From Ornithinibacillus caprae (GTDB lineage: Bacteria > Bacillota > Bacilli > Bacillales > Amphibacillaceae), in assembly GCF_009728145.1 (NCBI RefSeq), contig NZ_WOCA01000024.1, positions 1 through 43,038 of the forward strand: a stretch of 43,038 nucleotides of DNA, in the 5' to 3' direction. Below, piece after piece: positions 10,560 through 40,600 of this stretch (the stretch's first letter is position 1; each line of letters opens with the position of its first letter). The position numbers were made by a program, and so were the translations under genes. The notes beneath the pieces were generated by a model. That model was not told where the DNA came from and ran no database searches. It was given only the letters and a program-made list of their open reading frames with translations.

Positions 10560-10645
10560 AGAAAACTTGCATTCGCCAAGACTTTATAGTGAATGACCTG
10601 GTTGTACTTATGCCGGATAGAAAAGTATACTTTCTCATCTGCCAA
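10560..10645 (+). repeat. Dispersed two-hairpin repeat R1, copy B
   Basis: About 86 bp with the R1 plan: CATTCGCC...TAGTGAATG, CTTATGCCGGAT, then AGAAAAG-TATA-CTTTCT. The second stem differs from other copies by paired changes (GGAAAG/CTTTCC becomes AGAAAAG/CTTTCT). It ends on the ribosome binding site of yjbI. Confidence 0.8.
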
Positions 10646-10658
10646 GGAGAAAATAATT

Positions 10659-11039
10659 ATGACAGAATACGGAACACTATATGAAGCAATAGGTGGCTTT
10701 AAAACAGTCAAACGATTAGTGACTGCATTTTATAAACGAGTTGGCAATCATCCGAAACTAACTCCTATATTTCCAGATGATCTAACAGAAACTGCTAGAA
10801 AGCAGAGTTTATTTCTAACACAATTCTTAGGTGGTCCTAAACTCTATTCAGAAGAATTTGGGCATCCTATGTTACGAAGACGTCATTTACCATTTGAAAT
10901 AACTCCAACTAGAAAAGATGCATGGTTAGAATGCATGGCTGAAGCATTAGAGGAAGCAAACATTGAAGAACCATATCGTACAGCTATATTTGAAAGACTA
11001 ACAATGACCGCCCACCATATGATGAATACACCAGATTAA
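10659..11039 (+). CDS. yjbI: Truncated haemoglobin, group II (YjbI)
   Basis: A 126-residue truncated globin of the O group with [38 protein letters not shown] (proximal His region) and WLECMAEAL. It binds haem and O2. In firmicutes the gene is adjacent to yjbH, as here. The start at 10659 is chosen because AAGGAG lies about 9 nt upstream and the globin fold begins [11 protein letters not shown] longer frame from 10593 would run through repeat copy B. The gap to yjbH is 118 bp. Confidence 0.92.
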
Positions 11040-11157
11040 GAGTAAACGTGCAAACATCCTTGTTATCGGTATGTACTGGACATGGCTGGTTCCTGTAAAT
11101 GAGTTGAGGAACTCCAAAACTTTGCACATTCTTAATACACTAGAAAGGAGAATCGAT

Positions 11158-12045
11158 GTGAGCTGGAATCATGCTGAGCTAGAAAGCTCCAATCAGACGA
11201 ACACATCGCATAAATATAGCTACGTTGTCAATAAACCGATTGAAATTTACGTTTTTATTGATCCATTATGTCCTGAATGTTGGTCATTAGAACCTTATTT
11301 AAAAAAATTATCTATTGAATATGGTCGTTTTTTTACACTCTACCCAATCATGGGCGGATATTTAAATCCACTAACAAAAGATAAATTTGATCAACCGAAG
11401 AAATTAAAAGATATTTGGGAAAAAACAGCAAAGCGAACTGGGATGAGCTGTGATGGTGATTTGTGGATTGAGAACCCAATTAATTCTCCGAAAATGGCAT
11501 TCTTAGCTATTAAAGCAGCTGAACTTCAAGGAAAACGTGCCGGAAGAGTATTTTTACGAAAAGTACAGGAAAGTGTATTCCTTAATAAGCAGGATATATC
11601 CGACGAGAATGTGTTAATACAATGTGCTAAAGATGCTGAACTTGACCTAAATGAATTTAAAAATGACCTGCATTCCCCATCTGCCAAAAAAGCACTGCAA
11701 TGTGACTTAAAATTAACTAAAGAGATGGATGTCGATTACACACCTACTATTGTTTTCTTTAATCAAAATGCCGAAGAACAAGGCCTTAAGATTTCTGGAC
11801 TTTATCCATATGATATTTATGTACGTGTATTAAGTGAAATGCTACAAAAGCAGCCGATCCCATCTGAAAAGCCACCTCTTGAAGACTTTTTATCCTATTA
11901 CGATGTGGTAGGAAGTAAAGAAGTATCGGTTGTTTATAACTGGACGGTAAATAAGGCAGAACGAGAAATGAAGAAGCTACAATTGAGACAAAAAACGGAA
12001 AAAATCACTGCAAAGTATGGTTCTTTTTGGAAGCATATAAAATAA
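11158..12045 (+). CDS. spxH: ClpXP adaptor for Spx degradation (YjbH/SpxH)
   Basis: A 295-residue DsbA/FrnE-like protein with thioredoxin-fold motif DPLCPECW (Cys38 and Cys41) and [14 protein letters not shown]. In B. subtilis YjbH delivers Spx to ClpXP under non-stress conditions. Its length (299 there) supports the GTG start at 11158, which follows AAAGGAG. An upstream in-frame ATG at 11071 would add 29 unrelated residues. Its substrate gene spx lies 5 kb away, in the same neighbourhood as in Bacillus. Confidence 0.92.
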
Positions 12046-12200: not shown

Positions 12201-12422
12201 CTTCTCACTTCTTTGTATAAAAACAAAGGGGGATGGGAGAAAGTTTCATGATCAAACAAAGGGGTTTTGTTTTGTGAGTCATCTCACATTTATAATATAA
12301 CAAGATTCATTTATTTGCGCAATACAAATGTTCATACATTCACAAAATCGTCACTTCTAATTCATTTTTTGGAAACATATAGATATTACTAACCATATAC
12401 TATATTTGGAGGGGCTGATTGC

Positions 12423-17793: not shown

Positions 17794-18135
17794 ATGAAGA
17801 AAATTGAAGCAATTATTCGCCCTGAGAAGTTCCAATTACTTCGAAGCGAACTCTCTTCCATTGGTATCGGAGGTTTAACCATCACCGAAGCAGCTGGAAC
17901 TGGGAAACAAAAAGGGCAAACAGGAGTATTTCGAGGAAATACGTTTCAGATTCAATTACTGCCAAAATTAAAAGTGGAAATGGTTGTAGATGATCTGCAA
18001 GTGGATGAAATTGTAGATATCATCATTAATACTTGCAGTACTGGAAATATCGGTGATGGAAAGATATTTATCCATCCTATTGAAGAAATTATACGGATAC
18101 GAACTAAAGAACGTGGAGTTGAAGCAGTACGATAA
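17794..18135 (+). CDS. glnK: PII-family nitrogen regulator GlnK
   Basis: A 113-residue PII protein (MKKIEAIIRPEKFQLLRSEL, T-loop GKQKGQTGVFRGNTF, B-loop STGNIGDGKIF, C-terminal IRIRTKERG). It senses 2-oxoglutarate and ATP/ADP and plugs the AmtB channel with its T-loop. Residues 46 and 51, both Tyr in E. coli GlnB/GlnK with Tyr51 the uridylylated one, are Phe here, so uridylylation is excluded. AAAGGGG precedes the ATG. First gene of glnK-amtB, the reverse of the B. subtilis amtB-glnK (nrgAB) order. Confidence 0.95.
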   Translation: MKKIEAIIRPEKFQLLRSELSSIGIGGLTITEAAGTGKQKGQTGVFRGNTFQIQLLPKLKVEMVVDDLQVDEIVDIIINTCSTGNIGDGKIFIHPIEEIIRIRTKERGVEAVR

Positions 18136-18161
18136 GTTTAAAATCTAAAGGAGGAGTTTCA

Positions 18162-19529
18162 TTGTTTAGAAAAAGTTTTTTCTTGTTTTTGGTTGTTTTT
18201 TTAATTGCATCACCAGTTTACGCGGCACCAACCGTAGAGTCACTGGAATTATCCGTTAATCTTGTGTGGGTGATGCTTGGTGCATTTCTAGTATTCTTTA
18301 TGCATGCAGGTTTTGCCATGGTGGAATCAGGTTTCACACGCTCCAAAAACACGCTTAACATTTTAATGAAAAACTTTCTAACGATCAGTGTCGCAGCAAT
18401 TTTATTCTATGTAATAGGATATGGCCTCATGTTCGGAACTTCAGGTGGTTCATTCATTGGAGTGGATGGTTTCTTATTAAGTGGTGTCGACGATATCGGA
18501 TTCTTTATTTTCCAAGCTATGTTTGTTGCAACTTGTGCGACCATCATGTCTGGAGCTGTTGCAGAACGAATTAAGCTAGGTAGTTATATATTAATTGTCA
18601 TTGTAATGACAGCAGTAATTTATCCGGTGGTAGGTCACTGGATTTGGCAAGGCGACGGCTGGTTAACTACGTTAGGTTTCAGTGATTTTGCAGGTTCAAC
18701 TGTCGTACATTTAACTGGAGCTGTTGGTGCATTAATGGTTGTATTAATTTTAGGTCCACGCCTTGGGAAATATAAAGGAAAAAAAGTAAATGTTATCCCA
18801 GGACACAATATTCCACTAGGGGCTCTTGGCGTATTCATTCTTTGGTTAGGTTGGTTTGGTTTTAATGGCGGTAGTTCACTTGCCGCTGATCCAGAATTAG
18901 TTCCAATGGTGATCGGAACAACGTTATTATCTACATCTGCTGCATTAGTAGCTTCTGTCGCCTATACAAAGCTACGTTTTAGAAGAGTGGATGCCTCTCT
19001 ATCACTTAATGGTGTTTTGGCTGGGCTAGTTGGTATTACAGCAGGCTGTGCGGAAATTTCTTTAAGTGGTTCGATTATCGTTGGTTTAGTATCTGGGGTT
19101 CTACTTGTTGAAGGAATTCGTTTCCTAGATGCAACATGTAAAATAGATGACCCTGTAGGAGCAATTGCAGTTCATGGGATTTGCGGCATATGGGGTACGA
19201 TCGCGATTGGTTTCTTCTCAACGGATACCGGATTACTTTATGGGTATGGTACTTCTCAGTTAGCCATTCAAACAATTGGAGTTCTAGCGGTAATTGCTTG
19301 GGTCGGTTTAACTATCGGTGGATTTACGTATATATTGAACCTCATTTCACCAATTCGCGTCTCGGAGGAAGAAGAGGTCGCAGGTCTTGACTTTGCTGAA
19401 CATGGTTCGAATGCCTATGACTTCAAAGACACATTACTAACCAATGATGATACTGATACAGCAACAGGTTTAGCGCTTGCCGATCGTTTAAATAACTTAC
19501 CTGTTGGAAAGAGTATGAAAACAGAGTAA
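18162..19529 (+). CDS. amtB: Ammonium transporter AmtB
   Basis: A 455-residue Amt/MEP/Rh channel. A signal-peptide-like N-terminus (cleavage probably after VYA, residue 22) is followed by eleven membrane helices, the Amt signature SDFAGSTVVHLTGAVGAL carrying the first pore His, and AVHGICGIWGTIAIGFFS carrying the second. The cytosolic tail (EEEEVAGLDFAEHGSNAY) is the usual GlnK contact. Starts with TTG after AAAGGAGGAG, 26 bp after glnK, and ends at a terminator. Confidence 0.95.
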   Translation: MFRKSFFLFLVVFLIASPVYAAPTVESLELSVNLVWVMLGAFLVFFMHAGFAMVESGFTRSKNTLNILMKNFLTISVAAILFYVIGYGLMFGTSGGSFIGVDGFLLSGVDDIGFFIFQAMFVATCATIMSGAVAERIKLGSYILIVIVMTAVIYPVVGHWIWQGDGWLTTLGFSDFAGSTVVHLTGAVGALMVVLILGPRLGKYKGKKVNVIPGHNIPLGALGVFILWLGWFGFNGGSSLAADPELVPMVIGTTLLSTSAALVASVAYTKLRFRRVDASLSLNGVLAGLVGITAGCAEISLSGSIIVGLVSGVLLVEGIRFLDATCKIDDPVGAIAVHGICGIWGTIAIGFFSTDTGLLYGYGTSQLAIQTIGVLAVIAWVGLTIGGFTYILNLISPIRVSEEEEVAGLDFAEHGSNAYDFKDTLLTNDDTDTATGLALADRLNNLPVGKSMKTE

Positions 19530-31078: not shown

Positions 31079-31606
31079 TTAGTACCAAGGTAATACACTT
31101 AATGCAGTCAGTGCAGCTAATGGTAAGACAAGTCTACGGAATCTTCTACGTGGACGAAATCCATAACCTGGGAATCCATATCCCGGGAATCCATAACCTG
31201 GAAATCCGTATCCGAAACCATAGCGGGTATCATCATCGTCCCATTGCCACATCGGCATTTGTTGTCCAGGGGGCATTTGCTGACCCGCTGGCATTTGACC
31301 CGTCGGCATTTGCTGACCTGCTGGTAATTGGCCCATTGGCATTTGTTGGCCTGCCGGCATTTGTCCCATCGGCATTTGTTGACCTGCTGGCATTTGGCCC
31401 ATCGGCATTTGTTGACCTGCTGGCATTTGGCCCACTGGCATAGTTTGGGCTGCTGGATCACCATCTATTGGAATTGCCATATAGACATAATCATCGTCTA
31501 ACCCCGTAATTATTCCATCAACTTGGGATCCATCATTAAGTTCTGCTAAAACATACGAATGCATGTGAGTTTTACACAAATCGTACATATGTTTATGTTT
31601 GTGCAT
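31079..31606 (-). CDS. Repeat-rich small protein with Sm-like N-terminus
   Basis: A 175-residue protein in three parts. Residues about 1-50 (MHKHKHMYDLCKTHMHSYVL, LNDGSQVDGIITGLDDDYVY) read like an Sm-type small beta barrel. Residues about 55-112 are near-perfect copies of an 11-residue unit MPAGQQMPMGQ. Then come an acidic patch (WQWDDDDTRYG), three GFPGY repeats, an Arg-rich cluster (RPRRRFRR) and a hydrophobic end (LVLPLAALTALSVLPWY). The tail could attach it to membrane or spore surfaces. GAGGAGGT precedes the ATG. I know of no function; a coat or surface role is a guess. Confidence 0.8.
   Translation of the reverse strand: MHKHKHMYDLCKTHMHSYVLAELNDGSQVDGIITGLDDDYVYMAIPIDGDPAAQTMPVGQMPAGQQMPMGQMPAGQQMPMGQMPAGQQMPMGQLPAGQQMPTGQMPAGQQMPPGQQMPMWQWDDDDTRYGFGYGFPGYGFPGYGFPGYGFRPRRRFRRLVLPLAALTALSVLPWY
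31262..31443 (-). repeat. 33-bp in-gene tandem repeat (11-residue units)
   Basis: About five units of 33 bp encode MPAGQQMPMGQ with small changes (VGQ, LPAG, TGQ, PPGQ). The near-identity at DNA level suggests recent slippage and likely length variation between strains. A separate 15-bp repeat (GFPGY) lies at about 31155-31205. Confidence 0.88.
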
Positions 31607-32658: not shown

Positions 32659-33789
32659 CTATGCTTTAGCTTTTTTCTTTTCACGCATTGCTCTTGGGAT
32701 ATATACGCAGTATGGTTCACTTTCCATGTAGTCACCTGTGACATTGTAGGCTCTTGACCTAGATCCCCCACATACATGTCTGAATTCGCATACTCCACAT
32801 TTCCCTTTATACTTGTCTGGATTCCGTAGATTTTTGAACACTTCGGATTCACGATAGATTTCAGCTAATGGAGTTTGACGAATATTCCCAGCTTTAATTG
32901 GAAGTAATCCACTTGGATAAACATCACCCGTATGGGAAATAAATACAAATCCGTTTCCATCGTTTACGCCTTTTGGTGCTCGTCCTAAACCGTCAATAGA
33001 ACCCGTTTTTCCATTCATAAGCGCATCTTCATAAAAGATATGATCCTTGTCGCTCATTCCTTTTTGCTCACGAATTTTGCTCTGTATAACAACTCGTCGA
33101 TAATGCTGTGCTGCAGTTGTTTTGATATCAAATGGAACTCGTTTAGAAAGTTTATATAACCAACGAAGTACTTTTTCATGTTCTGCTGGTGATATCATAT
33201 CGGATTCTTTTCCACGGCCAGTTGGAACGAGGAAGAATACACTCCATAATACAACACCTAGCTTTTCTACCATTTCAGCCATTTCATCTAAATATTCATA
33301 GTTATATCTAGAAATAACCGTATTGATCTGTAATGGCATATCTAGCTCATGTAAATAATTGATCGCATTCATCGTTAAATCAAAAGAACCAGATGTTCCA
33401 CGGAAATGATCGTGCACCTCTGCACAATGACCATCAATACTAAATGCCCAACGGGACAATCCAACATCTTTCGCTTTTTGCATTGCTTCCTTCGTCACAT
33501 TTGGTGTTGCAGATGGAGTCATGGAAACACGTACACCTTTTTTAACAGCATATTCAGCAATATCAAATACGTCTGGTCGTTCTAATGGGTCTCCTCCAGT
33601 GAATACAAGCATTGGATTATCCATGTCATATATATCATCAATTAACTTTTTACCTTCTTCAAATGTAATCTCCAATGGATGTCTATGATATTGAGCTTCT
33701 GCACGGCAATGTAGACACTTCAATTGGCATGCTCGGGTTAACTCCCATATGACGATAAATGGGTTTTCATTATAATCTCGAGAAAACAT
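32659..33789 (-). CDS. Radical SAM/SPASM protein, haem-synthase-like (AhbD/NirJ relatives)
   Basis: A 376-residue radical SAM enzyme. CQLKCLHC (Cys21, Cys25, Cys28) binds the [4Fe-4S]-SAM cluster. GGDPLERPD is the GGE-like motif, and a SPASM domain follows at the end (CGVCEFRHVCGGSRSRAY, SEPYC). The start FIVIWELTRACQLKCLHCRA is typical of the group with NirJ and AhbC/AhbD, which remodel haem side chains. Whether it makes haem, matures a peptide or does something else is not decided here. GGAGGG precedes the ATG. It stands alone with a Crp/Fnr-type site upstream, beside DUF2249 genes. Confidence 0.85.
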   Translation of the reverse strand: MFSRDYNENPFIVIWELTRACQLKCLHCRAEAQYHRHPLEITFEEGKKLIDDIYDMDNPMLVFTGGDPLERPDVFDIAEYAVKKGVRVSMTPSATPNVTKEAMQKAKDVGLSRWAFSIDGHCAEVHDHFRGTSGSFDLTMNAINYLHELDMPLQINTVISRYNYEYLDEMAEMVEKLGVVLWSVFFLVPTGRGKESDMISPAEHEKVLRWLYKLSKRVPFDIKTTAAQHYRRVVIQSKIREQKGMSDKDHIFYEDALMNGKTGSIDGLGRAPKGVNDGNGFVFISHTGDVYPSGLLPIKAGNIRQTPLAEIYRESEVFKNLRNPDKYKGKCGVCEFRHVCGGSRSRAYNVTGDYMESEPYCVYIPRAMREKKKAKA

Positions 33790-33851
33790 ATTATCCCTCC
33801 AGCCTTCTTAATGACTTAATTCAACCTTAATATAGTTCACACTCAAAAGAT

Positions 33852-33865
33852 GTGATATATTTCAC
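33852..33865. promoter_or_regulatory. Crp/Fnr-type operator upstream of the radical SAM gene
   Basis: GTGA-TATATT-TCAC is a full match to GTGA-N6-TCAC, and one flanking base (TGTGA) also fits. A possible -10, TAAGGT (33829-33824 on the minus strand), begins 29.5 bp from its centre, the class II activator spacing. Confidence 0.65.
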
Positions 33866-33917
33866 TAATTACGATATTGTTCATAAAACGGACAAAAAAT
33901 GACACCGATTGGAAGAT

Positions 33918-33956
33918 AAAAATAAAAAGTAGACCCCCTAATGCCAGGATCTACTC
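33918..33956 (-). terminator. Terminator of the minus-strand DUF2249 gene
   Basis: AGTAGATCC (33955-33947) pairs with GGGTCTACT (33937-33929) with a G-U pair, followed by TTTTTATTTTT on the minus strand. Confidence 0.8.
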
Positions 33957-33963
33957 TACATCT

Positions 33964-34203
33964 TTATTTTTTACCTATAACAACACGCCATAGTGTTGGT
34001 CCTTCTTCTACGTATTCCCAAGTAAACGTATCTTCTCTTTCCATCATAAATTGATAGTGTAATGGTTTGGGATCATGATCATTGGTAAGCTCCATAAACT
34101 CACCTTCTTTTAGTCCATCAAACACTTCAAAGATTCTTGGATGTCTTATTCTTGGCTCAATATCTGGAGCGTGTAATTTTGCAGCATATTTTAATTCATT
34201 CAT
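33964..34203 (-). CDS. DUF2249 protein 1
   Basis: A 79-residue DUF2249 protein (HPRIFEVFDGLKEGEFMELT, NDHDPKPLHYQF, ETFTWEYVEEGPTLWRVVIG-like end). This TusA-like alpha/beta fold occurs alone or beside redox and NO-related genes; its role is not known. No TusA-type catalytic Cys is present. AGGAGGG precedes the ATG. It has its own terminator and is divergent from the Crp/Fnr gene, sharing 205 bp of control region with it. Confidence 0.88.
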   Translation of the reverse strand: MNELKYAAKLHAPDIEPRIRHPRIFEVFDGLKEGEFMELTNDHDPKPLHYQFMMEREDTFTWEYVEEGPTLWRVVIGKK

Positions 34204-34263
34204 TGAAATCCCTCCTATTATTCATTTACGTCTATATCTTAAAGTGTTTTTTACTCTCTCTAT

Positions 34264-34277
34264 GTGAGAAAACACAC
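34264..34277. promoter_or_regulatory. Crp/Fnr-type operator, DUF2249 gene 1 / regulator
   Basis: GTGA-GAAAAC-ACAC is one mismatch from GTGA-N6-TCAC. For the minus-strand DUF2249 gene a -10 TAAGAT (34241-34236) begins 29.5 bp from its centre, again the class II spacing. Confidence 0.5.
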
Positions 34278-34287
34278 GTTCAGCATA

Positions 34288-34299
34288 TGATTTTTATCA
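34288..34299. promoter_or_regulatory. Fnr/Dnr-like inverted repeat upstream of the regulator
   Basis: TGAT-TTTT-ATCA equals the core of the Fnr/Anr/Dnr box TTGAT-N4-ATCAA, without its outer bases. It lies 110 bp before the regulator start, so it could serve autoregulation. Confidence 0.4.
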
Positions 34300-34408
34300 C
34301 GGACGCTAAGATTTATGTCTACATTTGAAACATATCGTGTTACTATTTAGGTGGAATTACAAACACCTATAAAATTATATTTCTTTACATATATGAAAGG
34401 AGTTTATT

Positions 34409-35101
34409 ATGAATATACAATCTGTAAAAGAGTTGCTTCAAAAGTTTCCTATCTTCAAAGATTTAAACGATGCGGAAATGGAACCAATTCTAGACTTGGC
34501 GAAGCATCGGATGTATCGGCAGGGATCCCATATTTTTATGCAAGGAGACCCACTCACCAATGTTTATTTTATTCACCAAGGAAAAGTAAAAATATATAAA
34601 ACGGATTTACATGGAAAGGAACAAATTGTGAATGTCCTGCAAAAAGGGGATATGTTTCCACACCAAGGCTTCTTCCGGCAAGATGATTATCCGGCACATG
34701 CAGAGGTTGCTGAGGATGCCATGCTAATCTATATTCCAATTAACTTATTTGAAAACTTTCTTCTCACACATCCGGAAATTTGCGTAAAACTATTTCGAGT
34801 ACTTGGTGATATTATTGTTGATCTACAAAGAAGGCTTGAAGAAAAAATCATGCTCAATACATATGAGCAAATTATTATGTTATTGATTCGCCTATCCAAG
34901 AAATATGGAAAGGAACTAGAAGATGGAAATGTCAAAATAACGACACAATTTACCAATCGAGAGCTGGCAAATATGATTGGTTCCAGTCGTGAAACCGTAA
35001 GCCGGACACTAACCCAACTAAAAAAAGCAGAACTAATCAGTAATGACAGCAAAGGAAACATCCTCTTAGACGTAGAAGCCCTCGAAGCTGAATTATTTTA
35101 A
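34409..35101 (+). CDS. Crp/Fnr-family regulator without Fe-S cysteines
   Basis: A 230-residue regulator. A cyclic-nucleotide-binding-type beta roll (about 15-130, with GDPLTNVYFIHQGKVKIYKT and VLQKGDMFPHQGF) is followed by a dimer helix and a winged HTH (FTNRELANMIGSSRETVSRT) with the E-x-x-S-R recognition helix of Crp/Fnr proteins. The only cysteine is one in EICVKLF, so it cannot carry an Fnr [4Fe-4S] cluster. The cAMP pocket residues are not evident either. A haem- or NO-sensing type (Dnr-like) is possible; His in FPHQGFF is a candidate ligand. AAAGGAG precedes the ATG. Confidence 0.88.
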   Translation: MNIQSVKELLQKFPIFKDLNDAEMEPILDLAKHRMYRQGSHIFMQGDPLTNVYFIHQGKVKIYKTDLHGKEQIVNVLQKGDMFPHQGFFRQDDYPAHAEVAEDAMLIYIPINLFENFLLTHPEICVKLFRVLGDIIVDLQRRLEEKIMLNTYEQIIMLLIRLSKKYGKELEDGNVKITTQFTNRELANMIGSSRETVSRTLTQLKKAELISNDSKGNILLDVEALEAELF

Positions 35102-35104
35102 TCG

Positions 35105-35160
35105 AAGGAGTGCCCGTCACCTGTCAAAATTCGACAAGTGACAGGCACTCCTCGTTTTTT
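35105..35160 (+). terminator. Regulator terminator formed by repeat R4
   Basis: AGGAGTGCC (35106-35114) and GGCACTCCT (35144-35152) close a long hairpin with inner arms GTCAC-TGTC / GACA-GTGAC, followed by CGTTTTTT. Half of it (35129-35148) recurs at 30601-30620. Confidence 0.8.
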
Positions 35161-35179
35161 CTTACTTCCTTTTACATCC

Positions 35180-35221
35180 GTGAGTTTCGTCACTTCTTTT
35201 CTAATTGAAAATGATTATCAT
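35180..35221 (+). promoter_or_regulatory. Dual-control promoter of the DUF2249-membrane operon (Crp/Fnr site plus Fur-type box)
   Basis: GTGA-GTTTCG-TCAC (35180-35193) is a full GTGA-N6-TCAC palindrome. A -10, TATCAT (35216-35221), begins 29.5 bp from its centre, the exact class II activator distance. TGAAAATGATTATCA (35206-35220) matches the Fur-family 7-1-7 box TGATAAT-N-ATTATCA at 13 of 14 fixed bases and overlaps the -10. Activation by the adjacent regulator and iron-dependent repression are inferred. Confidence 0.65.
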
Positions 35222-35271
35222 AGGTTTAGAGGGAAACATCCTTTATTAATTCTAATCATGAGGTGATGAGA

Positions 35272-35532
35272 ATGAGCAACAATGAATCATTTGTTGAATT
35301 AGATGTTCGTGAAGATTTACGTTTAAAGAAAGAGCCTTTCGATAAAATCATGGGAACTGTGAAGGAATTAAAGGATGGCCAGGCCTTTATCTTACACGCC
35401 CCTTTTAACCCTGTTCCACTTCATAAAGTATTGGGTCGAAAAGGCTTTACCTATGAATCAGAAAAAATAGAAAAGAAGCATTGGAAAGTGACCTATACCA
35501 AGGAGGAGGCTCCAAATAATGCTAGTAATTGA
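35272..35532 (+). CDS. DUF2249 protein 2
   Basis: An 86-residue DUF2249 protein starting MSNNESFVELDVREDLRLKK with KIMGTVKELKDGQAFILHAP and FNPVPLHKVLGRKGFTYE, the common core of the family. The ATG at 35272 has AGGTGA about 6 nt upstream; earlier in-frame starts at 35263 and 35266 overlap the site. First gene of a four-gene operon, overlapping the next gene by 14 bp. Confidence 0.88.
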   Translation: MSNNESFVELDVREDLRLKKEPFDKIMGTVKELKDGQAFILHAPFNPVPLHKVLGRKGFTYESEKIEKKHWKVTYTKEEAPNNASN

Positions 35533-35737
35533 TAATCGCGGGCTGGAACCACCACAACCAATGATGCGCACATTAAAAGCATTAGAAAAGATGGATGAAG
35601 GCGAAAAGCTATCTATTATAAACGATCGTCGACCAATGTTTTTGTACGAAGAATTAAACGACCTGGGATACTTACATGAAACGGAGCCTCAGGAGGATGG
35701 AAGCTTTAAAATAACCATAACGAAAACAGGTGATTAA
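35519..35737 (+). CDS. DUF2249 protein 3
   Basis: A 72-residue DUF2249 protein (MLVIDNRGLEPPQPMMRTLK, LEKMDEGEKLSIINDRRPMF, LYEELNDLGYLHE). The pattern R-x-L-x-P-P...G-x-x-L-x-I...P-x-x-L-Y-x-x-L is the family core. It overlaps the previous frame by 14 bp and sits 2 bp before the membrane protein, so translation is likely coupled. AAGGAGGAGG lies before the ATG. Distinct enough from the other two copies that it is not a recent duplicate. Confidence 0.86.
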   Translation: MLVIDNRGLEPPQPMMRTLKALEKMDEGEKLSIINDRRPMFLYEELNDLGYLHETEPQEDGSFKITITKTGD

Positions 35738-35739
35738 TA

Positions 35740-36987
35740 ATGATGCCTGGAGCAAATATGAAAATAGATACAGACATTCGCTTACCATTATCGTTTATTC
35801 TTTATGGTCTATTAGCTCTTGTAATCTCACAAGTAATTCTATTCGTAAGCAATGATGCCTTACTAACAGGTCACTTTCGAATTCCTGACATATGGATGGG
35901 AGCACATTTTCTTCTATTGGGTTATGCCGTAATGGTTGCAATGGGCGCTATGTACCAGCTCGTTCCTGTAGCATTTTTAACACCCATTTGGAGTCAGAAA
36001 TTTGGTTTTGTTCAGCTAGGAATAACCGTAATTGGGGTGACTGCTTTCGCCATTTTATTAGGAGTTAACCCAGACAAGGCTATATTTGGAGGAATTATCG
36101 CTATTGCCGGTATCCTTATGTTTATTTTCCAAATGGTTATGTCGATTTGGAATCAGGAAAAGAAAACAATGATGACTTATTTTGTCATTGGGGCAATTGC
36201 CTGCTTTTTCTTAACCATCATAGCTGGCTTTCTTTTAGCCTGGAATATCTCTGTTGGAGGAATTGGAAACCACAACACCATATTATCAACTCATATCCTA
36301 TTAGGTGTTGCAGGGTGGTTTACGCTATTAATTTTTGGTTTTTCGTATAAGCTTGTTCCCATGTTTAGTCTATCCCATGGATTCTCAATGAAGTGGGCTA
36401 AACCGGCACTATTAACTTACGTAATCGGACTTATTGTTTTAATAAGCTCTTTTTGGTCGAGTAGGGAAATTGGTCAAACAATTGGATGGGGGCTTTTATT
36501 TTTTGGATTTGGTTTCTTTTGCCTTGATATAAAAGATATCCTATCAAAGCGTGTAAAGAAAAAGCTAGATAAGTCATTCTCATTTGCTTTGCTAGCAATT
36601 ATCAATGGCCTGACAATACATGCCCTAGCATTAATATTTCGATTAGTAGGAATGAATGACTCGATCGTGTGGAGTTGGCTTATTTTCCTTTATATTATGG
36701 GATGGATCATCTTTAGCATCCTTGGTTATCTAAATAAAATTGTTCCTGTTCTTTGGTGGACATATAAGTACTCAGAGAAAATTGGTAAGGAAAAAGTTCC
36801 GCTACTTAAAGATCTGATTAATGAAAAAGCAAATATTGTACTGTTTAGTCTTTTTATTATTAGTGTTGTGGGGTTAACTTTAGGAGCACTAGCTCAATAT
36901 GGATTAGTGGTTGTCCTTTTCCAAGGAATTCTTACTATTGCTTCCCTACTTTATACCATTTCCATCATACGTATTCTATTCCTGTAA
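35740..36987 (+). CDS. Polytopic membrane protein, haem-copper oxidase/NnrS-like
   Basis: A 415-residue protein with about twelve membrane helices. Two segments repeat a pattern: His56-x-x-LLG...Y-x-LVP (GAHFLLLGYAV, MYQLVPVAF) and His-x-LLG...Y-x-LVP (STHILLGVAGW, SYKLVPMF); a weaker third is GYLNKIVPVLWW. Further His lie at 45, in GNHNTI, SLSHGF and LTIHALAL. The layout recalls subunit I of haem-copper oxidases and NnrS, in which such His bind haem or metal. No cytochrome c or subunit II partner is near, so an oxidase is unlikely. Third gene of its operon. The start is uncertain among ATGs at 35740, 35743 and 35758. Confidence 0.82.
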   Translation: MMPGANMKIDTDIRLPLSFILYGLLALVISQVILFVSNDALLTGHFRIPDIWMGAHFLLLGYAVMVAMGAMYQLVPVAFLTPIWSQKFGFVQLGITVIGVTAFAILLGVNPDKAIFGGIIAIAGILMFIFQMVMSIWNQEKKTMMTYFVIGAIACFFLTIIAGFLLAWNISVGGIGNHNTILSTHILLGVAGWFTLLIFGFSYKLVPMFSLSHGFSMKWAKPALLTYVIGLIVLISSFWSSREIGQTIGWGLLFFGFGFFCLDIKDILSKRVKKKLDKSFSFALLAIINGLTIHALALIFRLVGMNDSIVWSWLIFLYIMGWIIFSILGYLNKIVPVLWWTYKYSEKIGKEKVPLLKDLINEKANIVLFSLFIISVVGLTLGALAQYGLVVVLFQGILTIASLLYTISIIRILFL

Positions 36988-37008
36988 TATCAGAGAGGAG
37001 TGTTCAAA

Positions 37009-37311
37009 TTGTCCTTACTCACAAAGGTCGGAGCTTCTTTATTTGAAGTAATTGATCCGGAGCTTGGTGTTAATATTATGGATTTAGGCCTTGTTTATGG
37101 CATTGAAATCGATGATGAAGATAACATAAAAATCACAATGACACTAACTACTCCTGGATGTCCTATGCATGACAGTATTAAAAATGGTGTCCAATATCAA
37201 GTCAGCCAGGTGGAAGGTGTGGGCGAAATAGATGTAAATATTATTTGGGAACCAGCCTGGACTCCTGCAAAAATGAGTGAAAAGGCTAAAGAAATGCTTG
37301 GATTTTCCTAA
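37009..37311 (+). CDS. DUF59/MIP18-family protein (operon copy)
   Basis: A 100-residue DUF59 protein with VIDPELGVNIMDLGLVYGIE, MTLTTPGCPMHDSI (conserved Cys) and IIWEPAWTPAKMSEKAKEML. Relatives (SufT, YitW, MIP18) assist iron-sulfur protein maturation. TTG at 37009 is chosen, 8 nt after GAGGAG; a GTG three codons earlier overlaps the site. Last gene of the DUF2249 operon, 21 bp after the membrane gene. A second DUF59 gene (yitW) is at 40212. Confidence 0.9.
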   Translation: MSLLTKVGASLFEVIDPELGVNIMDLGLVYGIEIDDEDNIKITMTLTTPGCPMHDSIKNGVQYQVSQVEGVGEIDVNIIWEPAWTPAKMSEKAKEMLGFS

Positions 37312-40211: not shown

Positions 40212-40523
40212 TCAATCAGGAATACCTAATGCAATTTTAGCGTAACGTGACATTCTTTCTTTGCCCCATGGTGGGTTCCAAACGATATCTACTTTCGTTT
40301 CCTTTACTTCAGGGATATCTGAAAGTGCACGTTTAACATCTGACTCAATATGGCCAGCAAGAGGGCACCCCATTGCAGTAAGAGTCATTGTTACCGTACA
40401 TAAACCCTCATCATTTAAATCTACATCATATATTAAGCCTAGATTAACAATATCAATTCCTAATTCAGGGTCAATTACATTTTCTAATGCGCCCATCAAA
40501 TTTTCTTTTAACGCTTCATCCAT
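40212..40523 (-). CDS. yitW: DUF59/MIP18-family Fe-S maturation protein YitW
   Basis: A 103-residue DUF59 protein starting MDEALKENLMGALENVIDPE with LGLIYDVDLNDEG, MTLTAMGCPLAGHI (conserved Cys) and DIVWNPPWGKERMSRYAKIA. Near identical in layout to B. subtilis YitW, a factor linked to iron-sulfur protein assembly. The ATG at 40523 follows AAAGGAGGT; the longer frame to 40544 overlaps that site. Follows yitV on the same strand. Confidence 0.92.
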   Translation of the reverse strand: MDEALKENLMGALENVIDPELGIDIVNLGLIYDVDLNDEGLCTVTMTLTAMGCPLAGHIESDVKRALSDIPEVKETKVDIVWNPPWGKERMSRYAKIALGIPD

Positions 40524-40600
40524 GACCTCAACCTCCTTTACCATTCATACTATTATTTAAACATATTTTCCAAGCAATTAAAAATGATTTTCATCACACA

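Follow-up and report, generated by a model that had tools for sequence, protein, structure and literature searches.

The closest described relatives of the gene cluster considered here are the DUF2249 proteins DrpA and DrpB of Thermus thermophilus. Chahlafi et al. (2018) reported that deletion of drpAB renders expression of the nitrate reductase (nar) genes independent of nitrate and leaves NarG made with little activity, at least in the part of that paper available to us (PMC6282519). DUF2249 genes of Haloferax mediterranei are raised under denitrification, as stated in the accessible portion of a second study (PMC11218638). Across denitrifying bacteria and archaea DUF2249 proteins turn up repeatedly, with no function assigned to them. 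We analysed a window of 43,038 nucleotides from Ornithinibacillus caprae (contig NZ_WOCA01000024.1, positions 1 to 43,038), in which an earlier note, made from the sequence alone, had singled out seven genes at 32659..37311 as a self-contained redox/iron module and the best candidate in the window for an undescribed system. All seven frames are open and intact. The cluster is very probably a Drp-type accessory system linked to denitrification and nitric oxide (NO), acting where NO is made and removed. Its association with NO metabolism, suspected in the note as a link to NO or nitrite stress, is well supported by gene content, gene position and a promoter motif. The word undescribed does not hold for the DrpA/DrpB part, which the accessible text of the 2018 Thermus paper already covers, and the cluster as a whole seems to belong to a broader regulon of denitrification. 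What we claim as new is the apparently split DrpB, the gathering of regulator and radical SAM gene into a single cluster, and a linkage to NO rather than to nitrate.

The seven proteins were searched against Pfam and NCBIfam profiles, and the membrane protein against PHROGs as well. These searches recovered the families named in the note: a TIGR04053 radical SAM protein, three DUF2249 proteins, a Crp/Fnr-type regulator and a DUF59 domain. All three DUF2249 proteins exceed the Pfam cut-off, and theirs are the only DUF2249 genes found in the 4.16 Mb genome. The note had called the three paralogues, a label that gives way to a more specific assignment. DUF2249a and the DrpA-position protein of T. 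thermophilus share 63% identity over 65 residues, and DUF2249a fits the DrpA type, a single DUF2249 domain; its H21, D42 and H43 do not vary across an alignment of 29 rows, two of which hold the same sequence. Of the two DUF2249 domains in the DrpB-position protein, the first aligns with DUF2249b (E 3e-15, 38% over 71 residues) and the second with DUF2249c (40% over 63 residues). On another Thermus plasmid the DrpB-position protein consists of DUF1858 and two DUF2249 stretches; here the two DUF2249 domains are separate genes, and no DUF1858 match was found. Judged by these alignments, the DUF2249a-b-c set is DrpA plus what is probably a split DrpB. No solved structure resembling DUF2249a by sequence was found, and in the literature searched, outside which most subscription papers lay, DUF2249 is scarcely mentioned by name and TIGR04053 was not found as a name at all.

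The likeness extends past the two published genes. In T. thermophilus SG0.5JP17-16, a strain other than that of the drpAB study, the order is nitrate reductase alpha, narH, a TorD-type gene, narI, an MFS gene, DUF2249 (72 residues), DUF2249 (273 residues), a 144-residue protein, protoglobin, a relative of the membrane protein and DUF59. The four genes after the drpB-position gene follow with gaps of at most 50 bases. In size and place the two DUF2249 genes agree with DrpA and DrpB as the available text gives them (PMC6282519). On sequence grounds the cluster is thus the counterpart in Bacillota of the drp operon of Thermus, sharing with it the DrpA counterpart, the two DUF2249 domains of DrpB, a Crp-type regulator in the island, and the membrane protein and DUF59 in the run. 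It differs in that DrpB is apparently split and without DUF1858, the protoglobin and 144-residue genes are missing, the radical SAM gene lies inside the cluster, and in the host's family the set tracks nirK and NO reductase (NOR) genes more than nar.

The same genes travel together far beyond this genome. We surveyed 159 genomes of the host's family, 34 of which encode the membrane protein (window genome included, leaving 33 other loci), and a second, overlapping set of 80 named loci, the best 80 of 241 relatives from a collection scan; 27 of these 80 were excluded from later alignment as identical records. The membrane protein stands with DUF2249b, DUF2249c and a neighbouring DUF59 gene at 33/33 other family loci, and within the fetched stretch the module-type regulator occurs at 24, DUF2249a at 23 and the radical SAM gene at 22. 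The 80 named loci gave 79 each for DUF2249b, DUF2249c and DUF59 beside the membrane protein (L100 being the exception for DUF59) and, within the flanks examined, 54 for any Crp/Fnr gene (51 module-type), 57 for DUF2249a and 31 for a radical SAM match. The contig of L107 ends just past DUF59, so DUF2249b and c may be cut off there; in Schinkia (L108) and Calidifontibacillus (L109) both come after DUF59. Gene order is looser at a distance. Among 398 genomes sampled across the phylum, 20 (window genome included) had a match, some of them weak. Three genomes of the same class (L183-L185) carry, one after another, narG, a 333-residue radical SAM protein (weak match), DUF2249a, DUF2249b, the membrane protein and DUF59, with DUF2249b of 201 or 287 codons by its longest reading and preceded in two by a 124-residue frame. 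L191 has DUF2249, the membrane protein, DUF59 and Crp together; L196 combines DUF2249 with a longer relative and a 1095-residue frame that looks like qNOR by eye; other distant loci among those listed (e.g. L186, L190, L193) hold a subset of the genes. The module's two halves also occur apart: in L197 (genome G098, of the host's genus) a bNOR-like operon, a NirK gene, DUF2249a, the regulator and the radical SAM gene stand in a row without the membrane-protein operon, and L200 likewise has DUF2249a-Crp-radical SAM without it. Broken copies were seen as well: the membrane-protein gene is split in two in L059/L142 (a Virgibacillus halodenitrificans record), as is the radical SAM gene of L061, and G103:C21, from the host's genus, retains a DUF2249 remnant interrupted by a stop.

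The core set occurs in several Bacillota groups, in Deinococcota, in Alphaproteobacteria and, in part, in Campylobacterota, in differing surroundings, and membrane-protein relatives lie on 90 plasmid records, including 14 from Thermus and 45 from Sinorhizobium. Ensifer canadensis has the order cytochrome c-NO reductase large subunit, NorQ, NorD, hemN, DUF2249, membrane protein, DUF2249, DUF59, NnrS, nirK, SUMF1 type, Crp. The Mesorhizobium set is near Crp, NnrS and nosZ, the S. meliloti copy is near NnrS, nirK, nap and nor-side genes, and in Aliarcobacter DUF59 is the only module gene annotated beside the membrane-protein relative. That the cluster is a chance gathering of unrelated redox genes is scarcely credible: although some relatives share one chromosomal site (UppP in 17/80, YitV in 24/80 and YitU in 25/80 named loci), the recurrence of the same core set in several phyla amid different surroundings contradicts it.

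The gene content of the host's family links the module to NO. We called bNOR by a codon pattern for FGHTLVN that tolerates Phe at the Leu position too (G115 is an example); gene counts include partial or broken copies (e.g. nirK of G061, qNOR of G054 and G140), and sNOR stood outside the family search. Replacement of the cross-linking Tyr by Asn is a mark of alternative NORs, according to the accessible part of PMC3475470. The 159 genomes include 36 with nirK, 54 with bNOR, 10 with qNOR, 68 with narG over the cut-off and 52 with DUF2249. The membrane protein occurs together with nirK in 24 genomes (Fisher test, 4e-12), with bNOR in 30 (1e-13), with qNOR in 7 (9e-4) and with narG in 30 (1e-9). 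At least one of nirK, bNOR and qNOR is present in 34/34 genomes with the membrane protein versus 29/125 without it, and in 50/52 genomes with DUF2249. Shuffling within genera gave an expected count of 24.8 against the observed 34 (p <= 1e-4). Stratifying by narG separates the two kinds of gene: the membrane protein is found in 30/53 genomes with both narG and nirK/NOR, 0/15 with narG only, 4/10 with nirK/NOR only and 0/81 with neither. Because of these counts, the association of the module in this family with NO genes rather than with nitrate reductase is well supported.

These strata also bear on the nitrate-sensing system proposed for Thermus, in which DrpA would detect nitrate and DrpB with the membrane protein would signal to the Crp-type regulator. 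The orthology of DUF2249a to DrpA and the match of DUF2249b and c to DrpB speak for such a system, as do the position of the Thermus gene run directly after the nar genes, narG adjoining the module in L183-L185 and the nitrate-independent nar expression of the drpAB deletion, as given in the available text (PMC6282519). It is nevertheless distinctly unlikely here, given the 0/15 and 4/10 counts and the placement of the S. meliloti copy.

Position within genomes points the same way as gene content. Among the 34 genomes, the bNOR motif lies on the contig of the membrane protein in 21 and within 50 kb of it in 19, with corresponding counts of 11 and 7 for narG, 4 and 1 for nirK, and 2 and 1 for qNOR. 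A qNOR gene occurs in 16/80 named loci, lying in 14 between DUF2249a and the regulator and in L093 between the regulator and DUF2249b; L130 has qNOR in a stretch without DUF2249a. Pfam confirmed NorB domains for one qNOR member. The window genome itself encodes narG, a gene resembling Cu nitrite reductase (197.8 bits against a TIGR02376 cut-off of 296.3) that adjoins an sNOR-type gene, and a bNOR-type operon; profile searches gave no qNOR and no cd1 nitrite reductase match in it. Neighbouring ba3 oxidase genes were set aside as evidence for NO, because 31/41 oxidase-like subunit I genes of the named loci have HPxVY, the oxygen-reducing type, and the chromosomal order is conserved.

A shared promoter motif ties the module to the same genes. 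We searched upstream regions for the palindrome TGTGA-N6-TCACA, which we take to be a site of the FNR/Crp type, allowing one mismatch unless stated and dropping regions shorter than 250 bases; divergent genes share regions. In the named loci the palindrome precedes 26/33 radical SAM genes, 36/59 module-type regulators, 36/53 DUF2249a, 29/66 DUF2249b and 15/16 qNOR genes, over a background of 58/1128 for other genes and about 1% for shuffled regions; ba3 subunit I genes have it in 1/31. It is rare upstream of the membrane protein (2/80), DUF2249c (3/70) and DUF59 (2/74), as expected from their position inside the operon. In the window genome it precedes the radical SAM gene, the bNOR operon (2), the sNOR operon (1), nirK (1) and a small cytochrome c gene. 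The seven genes do form a unit, but self-contained was too strong a term, because the motif also stands at distant nirK and NOR operons of the same genome and because L197 and L200 have DUF2249a-Crp-radical SAM without the membrane-protein operon.

We then turn to the 415-residue membrane protein, which has no usable match in Pfam, NCBIfam or PHROGs (best E 0.25, 0.15 and 0.42). The duplicated His and Y-x-(L/I)VP repeats reported in the note are present: H56, H185, H213, H294, Y72 and Y330 are invariant and Y203 is nearly so in 33 aligned sequences, window included. In a set of 68, H56 and H185 are kept in 68/68, the loop residue H213 in 61/68 and H294 in 56/68, and both H56 and H185 are also kept in the aligned Thermus, rhizobial and Aliarcobacter copies. 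An AlphaFold2 model with 68 sequences as input (pLDDT 94.2, pTM 0.93) agrees with the oxidase-like nature proposed in the note, having the predicted 12-helix oxidase fold. Foldseek matched this model to 46 PDB chains at E <= 0.001; the 50 matches listed, out of 337, are without exception subunits of haem-copper oxidases or NO reductases (TM-score 0.64-0.73, taken on the query). Profile searches were less telling: COX1 has no match to the window protein at E <= 1, and of ten distant relatives one reached 21.8 bits and one 12.4, under a cut-off of 34.8. A PDB search with the membrane-protein profile returned only three cbb3 oxidase sequences (E 0.007-0.018). HMMER aligns H56 with the His of GHNAVGFF and H185 with the first His of GHVHAG in CcoN, a shift of one unit that the threefold pseudo-symmetry of the oxidase fold would allow. 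Since H56 and H185 fall on oxidase His segments in this alignment, the repeats look like internal repeats of the oxidase fold. Common descent with oxidases and NORs is likely, given the predicted structure. Identity as a transporter was rejected, as no transporter family matched and the fold matches listed are all oxidase or NOR. The note had named two findings that would refute it, genes that fail to co-occur in other genomes and a membrane protein of a characterised transporter family with no haem or metal, and neither was obtained.

Like the catalytic subunits of bNOR, sNOR and qNOR, as far as the available texts describe them (PMC3475470, PMC11388526), the membrane protein has the overall fold, by prediction, and it has genomes and a promoter motif in common with them. 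Unlike them, it lacks the histidine sextet with its three CuB/FeB ligands, as defined in the accessible part of PMC3475470, throughout the 33-sequence alignment; the window protein has no HH pair, and, as the note had stated, no oxidase partner subunit is among the seven genes. NnrS, a membrane protein with an oxidase-like fold, is likewise found in denitrification islands and neighbours the rhizobial copies. Identity with NnrS was rejected, since Pfam NnrS has no match at E <= 1 (positive control, a rhizobial NnrS, 371.4 bits) and the two families stand side by side in rhizobia. An NO-detoxifying activity of the membrane protein itself, as an NnrS-like protein or an atypical NO reductase, would suit the predicted oxidase/NOR fold, its confinement in the host's family to genomes with nirK, bNOR or qNOR, and the NnrS genes in the same islands. 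We consider this very improbable in view of the missing CuB/FeB ligand set, the lack of an electron-donor subunit in the operon, the failure to match NnrS where the adjacent rhizobial NnrS scores 371 bits, and the two NOR-type genes already in the window genome. The haem-copper oxidase homology (HCOH) proteins of Pei et al., from 2014, are said to combine a 12-helix oxidase fold, two conserved histidines and a denitrification context, the three-unit type reportedly binding a single haem. The membrane protein matches that type in its 12 helices and two conserved histidines, and its family may already be listed among them. In the Thermus run, the 144-residue protein next to protoglobin (L204 12521-12955, L208 10521-10955) has a weak COX1 match (E 7e-5, below cut-off, model positions 344-405) and is a possible four-helix, single-unit oxidase relative.

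Seven cysteine columns of the radical SAM protein are filled in 32/33 aligned sequences. It scores on the models of the haem b synthase AhbD (TIGR04545, 386.1 bits, cut-off 500) and of NirJ (167 bits) yet falls below both cut-offs; TIGR04053 is the only model shown whose cut-off it passes. On two Thermus plasmids that we looked at, the TIGR04053 gene adjoins one for nitrite reductase, which a single record names nirS. Haem d1 synthesis by this protein in the present organism was rejected, as its genome has no match to Cytochrom_D1, the cd1 nitrite reductase model. Across the family, matches occur in 19/159 genomes (16 over cut-off) and none spans the model, with single pieces of at most 38 bits and at most 75.1 summed per frame. 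An anti-phage system was likewise rejected: in a scan of the radical SAM protein, DUF2249c and the membrane protein, only the first matched (viperin models), which we took as superfamily likeness. FNR senses oxygen through an Fe-S (iron-sulfur) cluster held by a conserved set of cysteines. No such set appears in the alignment of the Crp/Fnr regulator, in which one Cys column exceeds 40% occupancy (33/62) and 10/61 relatives have no Cys at all. The DUF59 protein keeps its Cys in 66/66 aligned sequences. Its start may be TTG at 37009 rather than GTG at 37000, because TTG is better spaced from the ribosome site. The window holds a second DUF59 copy, YitW (40212-40544), among the surrounding yit genes.

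How these parts might work together can be outlined. The membrane protein would be a haem protein built like an oxidase or NOR catalytic subunit, with H56 and H185 ligating one haem. Having ligands for one haem and no CuB/FeB, it should therefore not carry out normal O2 or NO reduction; its part in the membrane would instead be to bind NO or a related nitrogen oxide. DrpA (DUF2249a) and the DrpB-like domains (DUF2249b and c, TusA-like without the catalytic Cys) would dock on it and relay its state. DUF59 would deliver or repair Fe-S clusters of respiratory enzymes under NO, the Crp/Fnr protein, without FNR-type cysteines, would switch the module together with nirK and the NOR operons through the TGTGA-N6-TCACA sites, and the radical SAM protein would probably supply haem without oxygen, in an AhbD-like way. 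We infer haem, NO binding, the relay and Fe-S delivery from the fold, the ligand residues and the family names. Accessory system and mechanism taken together are, in our judgement, about as probable as not, and a specific haem-NO relay in the membrane is possible but doubtful. That an oxidase fold has lost its catalytic metal and now serves as a membrane NO receptor, read by TusA-like proteins of the DrpA/DrpB type and coupled to Fe-S repair, is an unlikely idea. If true, the protein would be a new kind of haem protein for signalling or for handling NO, the cluster would be a common control and protection unit of denitrification in several phyla, and the Thermus 'nitrate sensor' would be recast as one component of a six-gene membrane complex. 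The way in which denitrifiers perceive or withstand NO bears on the release of N2O, and our analysis unites the DUF2249 proteins with an oxidase-fold membrane protein and DUF59 and ties the unit to the Thermus DrpAB mutant study.

The note had also suggested the DUF2249 proteins as carriers. A sulfur-carrier role is unlikely because the CPxP cysteine, the active site of the sulfurtransferase TusA, is missing: CPxP occurs in 0/53 DUF2249a, 0/66 DUF2249b and 0/70 DUF2249c, though the TusA model matches DUF2249c (E 3.2e-12, against 5.4e-19 for DUF2249). The same absence counts against pure maturation or repair, in which DUF59 and the DUF2249 proteins would build or mend haem or Fe-S centres in the reductases of nitrate and NO and the membrane protein would be a haem chaperone or docking site. 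Such a role is suggested by a SufT/MIP18-family gene adjoining the membrane-protein gene in 33/33 family and 79/80 named loci, by RIC/ScdA directly 3' in L140 and by the barely active NarG of drpAB mutants, as described in the accessible text (PMC6282519). We regard it as unlikely, since it also leaves an oxidase fold with two invariant histidines unexplained.

Several observations weigh against an NO-linked accessory system with an oxidase-like membrane protein. The strongest is that T. thermophilus NAR1, the host of the drpAB study, reduces nitrate to nitrite only, according to the available part of that paper (PMC6282519); a strain that stops at nitrite favours a nitrate-related or maturation role over one in NO. 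The same paper calls the operon bicistronic. The genomes are related by descent, so the counts are not independent, and the membrane protein is absent from 29/63 family genomes with nirK/NOR. The palindrome also precedes other Crp-type genes (9/24) and YitW (2/17, or 11/17 with up to two mismatches), and it precedes 0/8 bNOR subunit I genes; in the window genome the bNOR site precedes subunit II, the first gene of that operon. The narG operon of the window genome has no clear palindrome, and the module's own DUF2249a/Crp and DUF2249b promoters have two-mismatch sites only. With 71 palindromes in 4.16 Mb versus 69 for the reversed control, only position makes the motif notable. Finally, profile-profile comparisons of the membrane protein with B-family oxidase/NOR and with qNOR alignments were weak (17% and 0.8% probability) and gave no reliable match, which leaves the predicted fold as the main ground for the relation to oxidases.

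Table 1. Features of the O. caprae cluster, in window coordinates.
Feature	Position	Strand	Remarks
Radical SAM/SPASM protein, TIGR04053 family	32659..33789	-	CxxxCxxC and four conserved C-terminal cysteines; 526.7 bits, cut-off 395
FNR/Crp-like palindrome TGTGATATATTTCACT, 1 mismatch	33851..33866	.	5' of radical SAM gene
DUF2249a, DrpA orthologue	33964..34203	-	Pfam DUF2249; H21, D42, H43 invariant
Two weaker palindromes, 2 mismatches each	34263..34278 and 34286..34301	.	Between DUF2249a and regulator
Crp/Fnr-family regulator	34409..35101	+	Pfam/NCBIfam domains; without conserved cysteine set
Palindrome CGTGAGTTTCGTCACT, 2 mismatches	35179..35194	.	5' of four-gene operon
DUF2249b	35263..35532	+	Pfam; matches first DUF2249 domain of DrpB
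DUF2249c	35519..35737	+	Pfam; matches second DUF2249 domain of DrpB; TusA-like, PPQP instead of CPxP
415-residue membrane protein	35740..36987	+	Predicted haem-copper-oxidase fold; H56, H185 invariant; no CuB/FeB ligand set
DUF59/FeS_assembly_P (SufT/MIP18-like) protein	37000..37311	+	Pfam/NCBIfam; conserved Cys

Other features were seen in the window, its genome and L198; the hemerythrin-, haemoglobin-, YjbH- and GlnK/AmtB-like genes among them were named by eye. A hemerythrin-like gene of 139 residues precedes narG in the window genome (L202 10905-11324), and in L198 a similar one of 138 residues lies between narG and the radical SAM gene. At 10593-12045 a truncated-haemoglobin-like gene (148 residues) adjoins a YjbH-like gene (324 residues), a pair that is presumably as in the yjb region of B. 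subtilis, and this globin could also meet NO. A perfect palindrome, TGTGAGTCATCTCACA, lies downstream of the pair at 12273-12288. A GlnK/AmtB-like pair for ammonium sensing and transport occupies 17794-19529. Closer to the cluster, 31079-31606 encodes a protein with repeated MPxGQQMPxGQ units followed by YGFPG repeats, where the opposite strand is partly open too.

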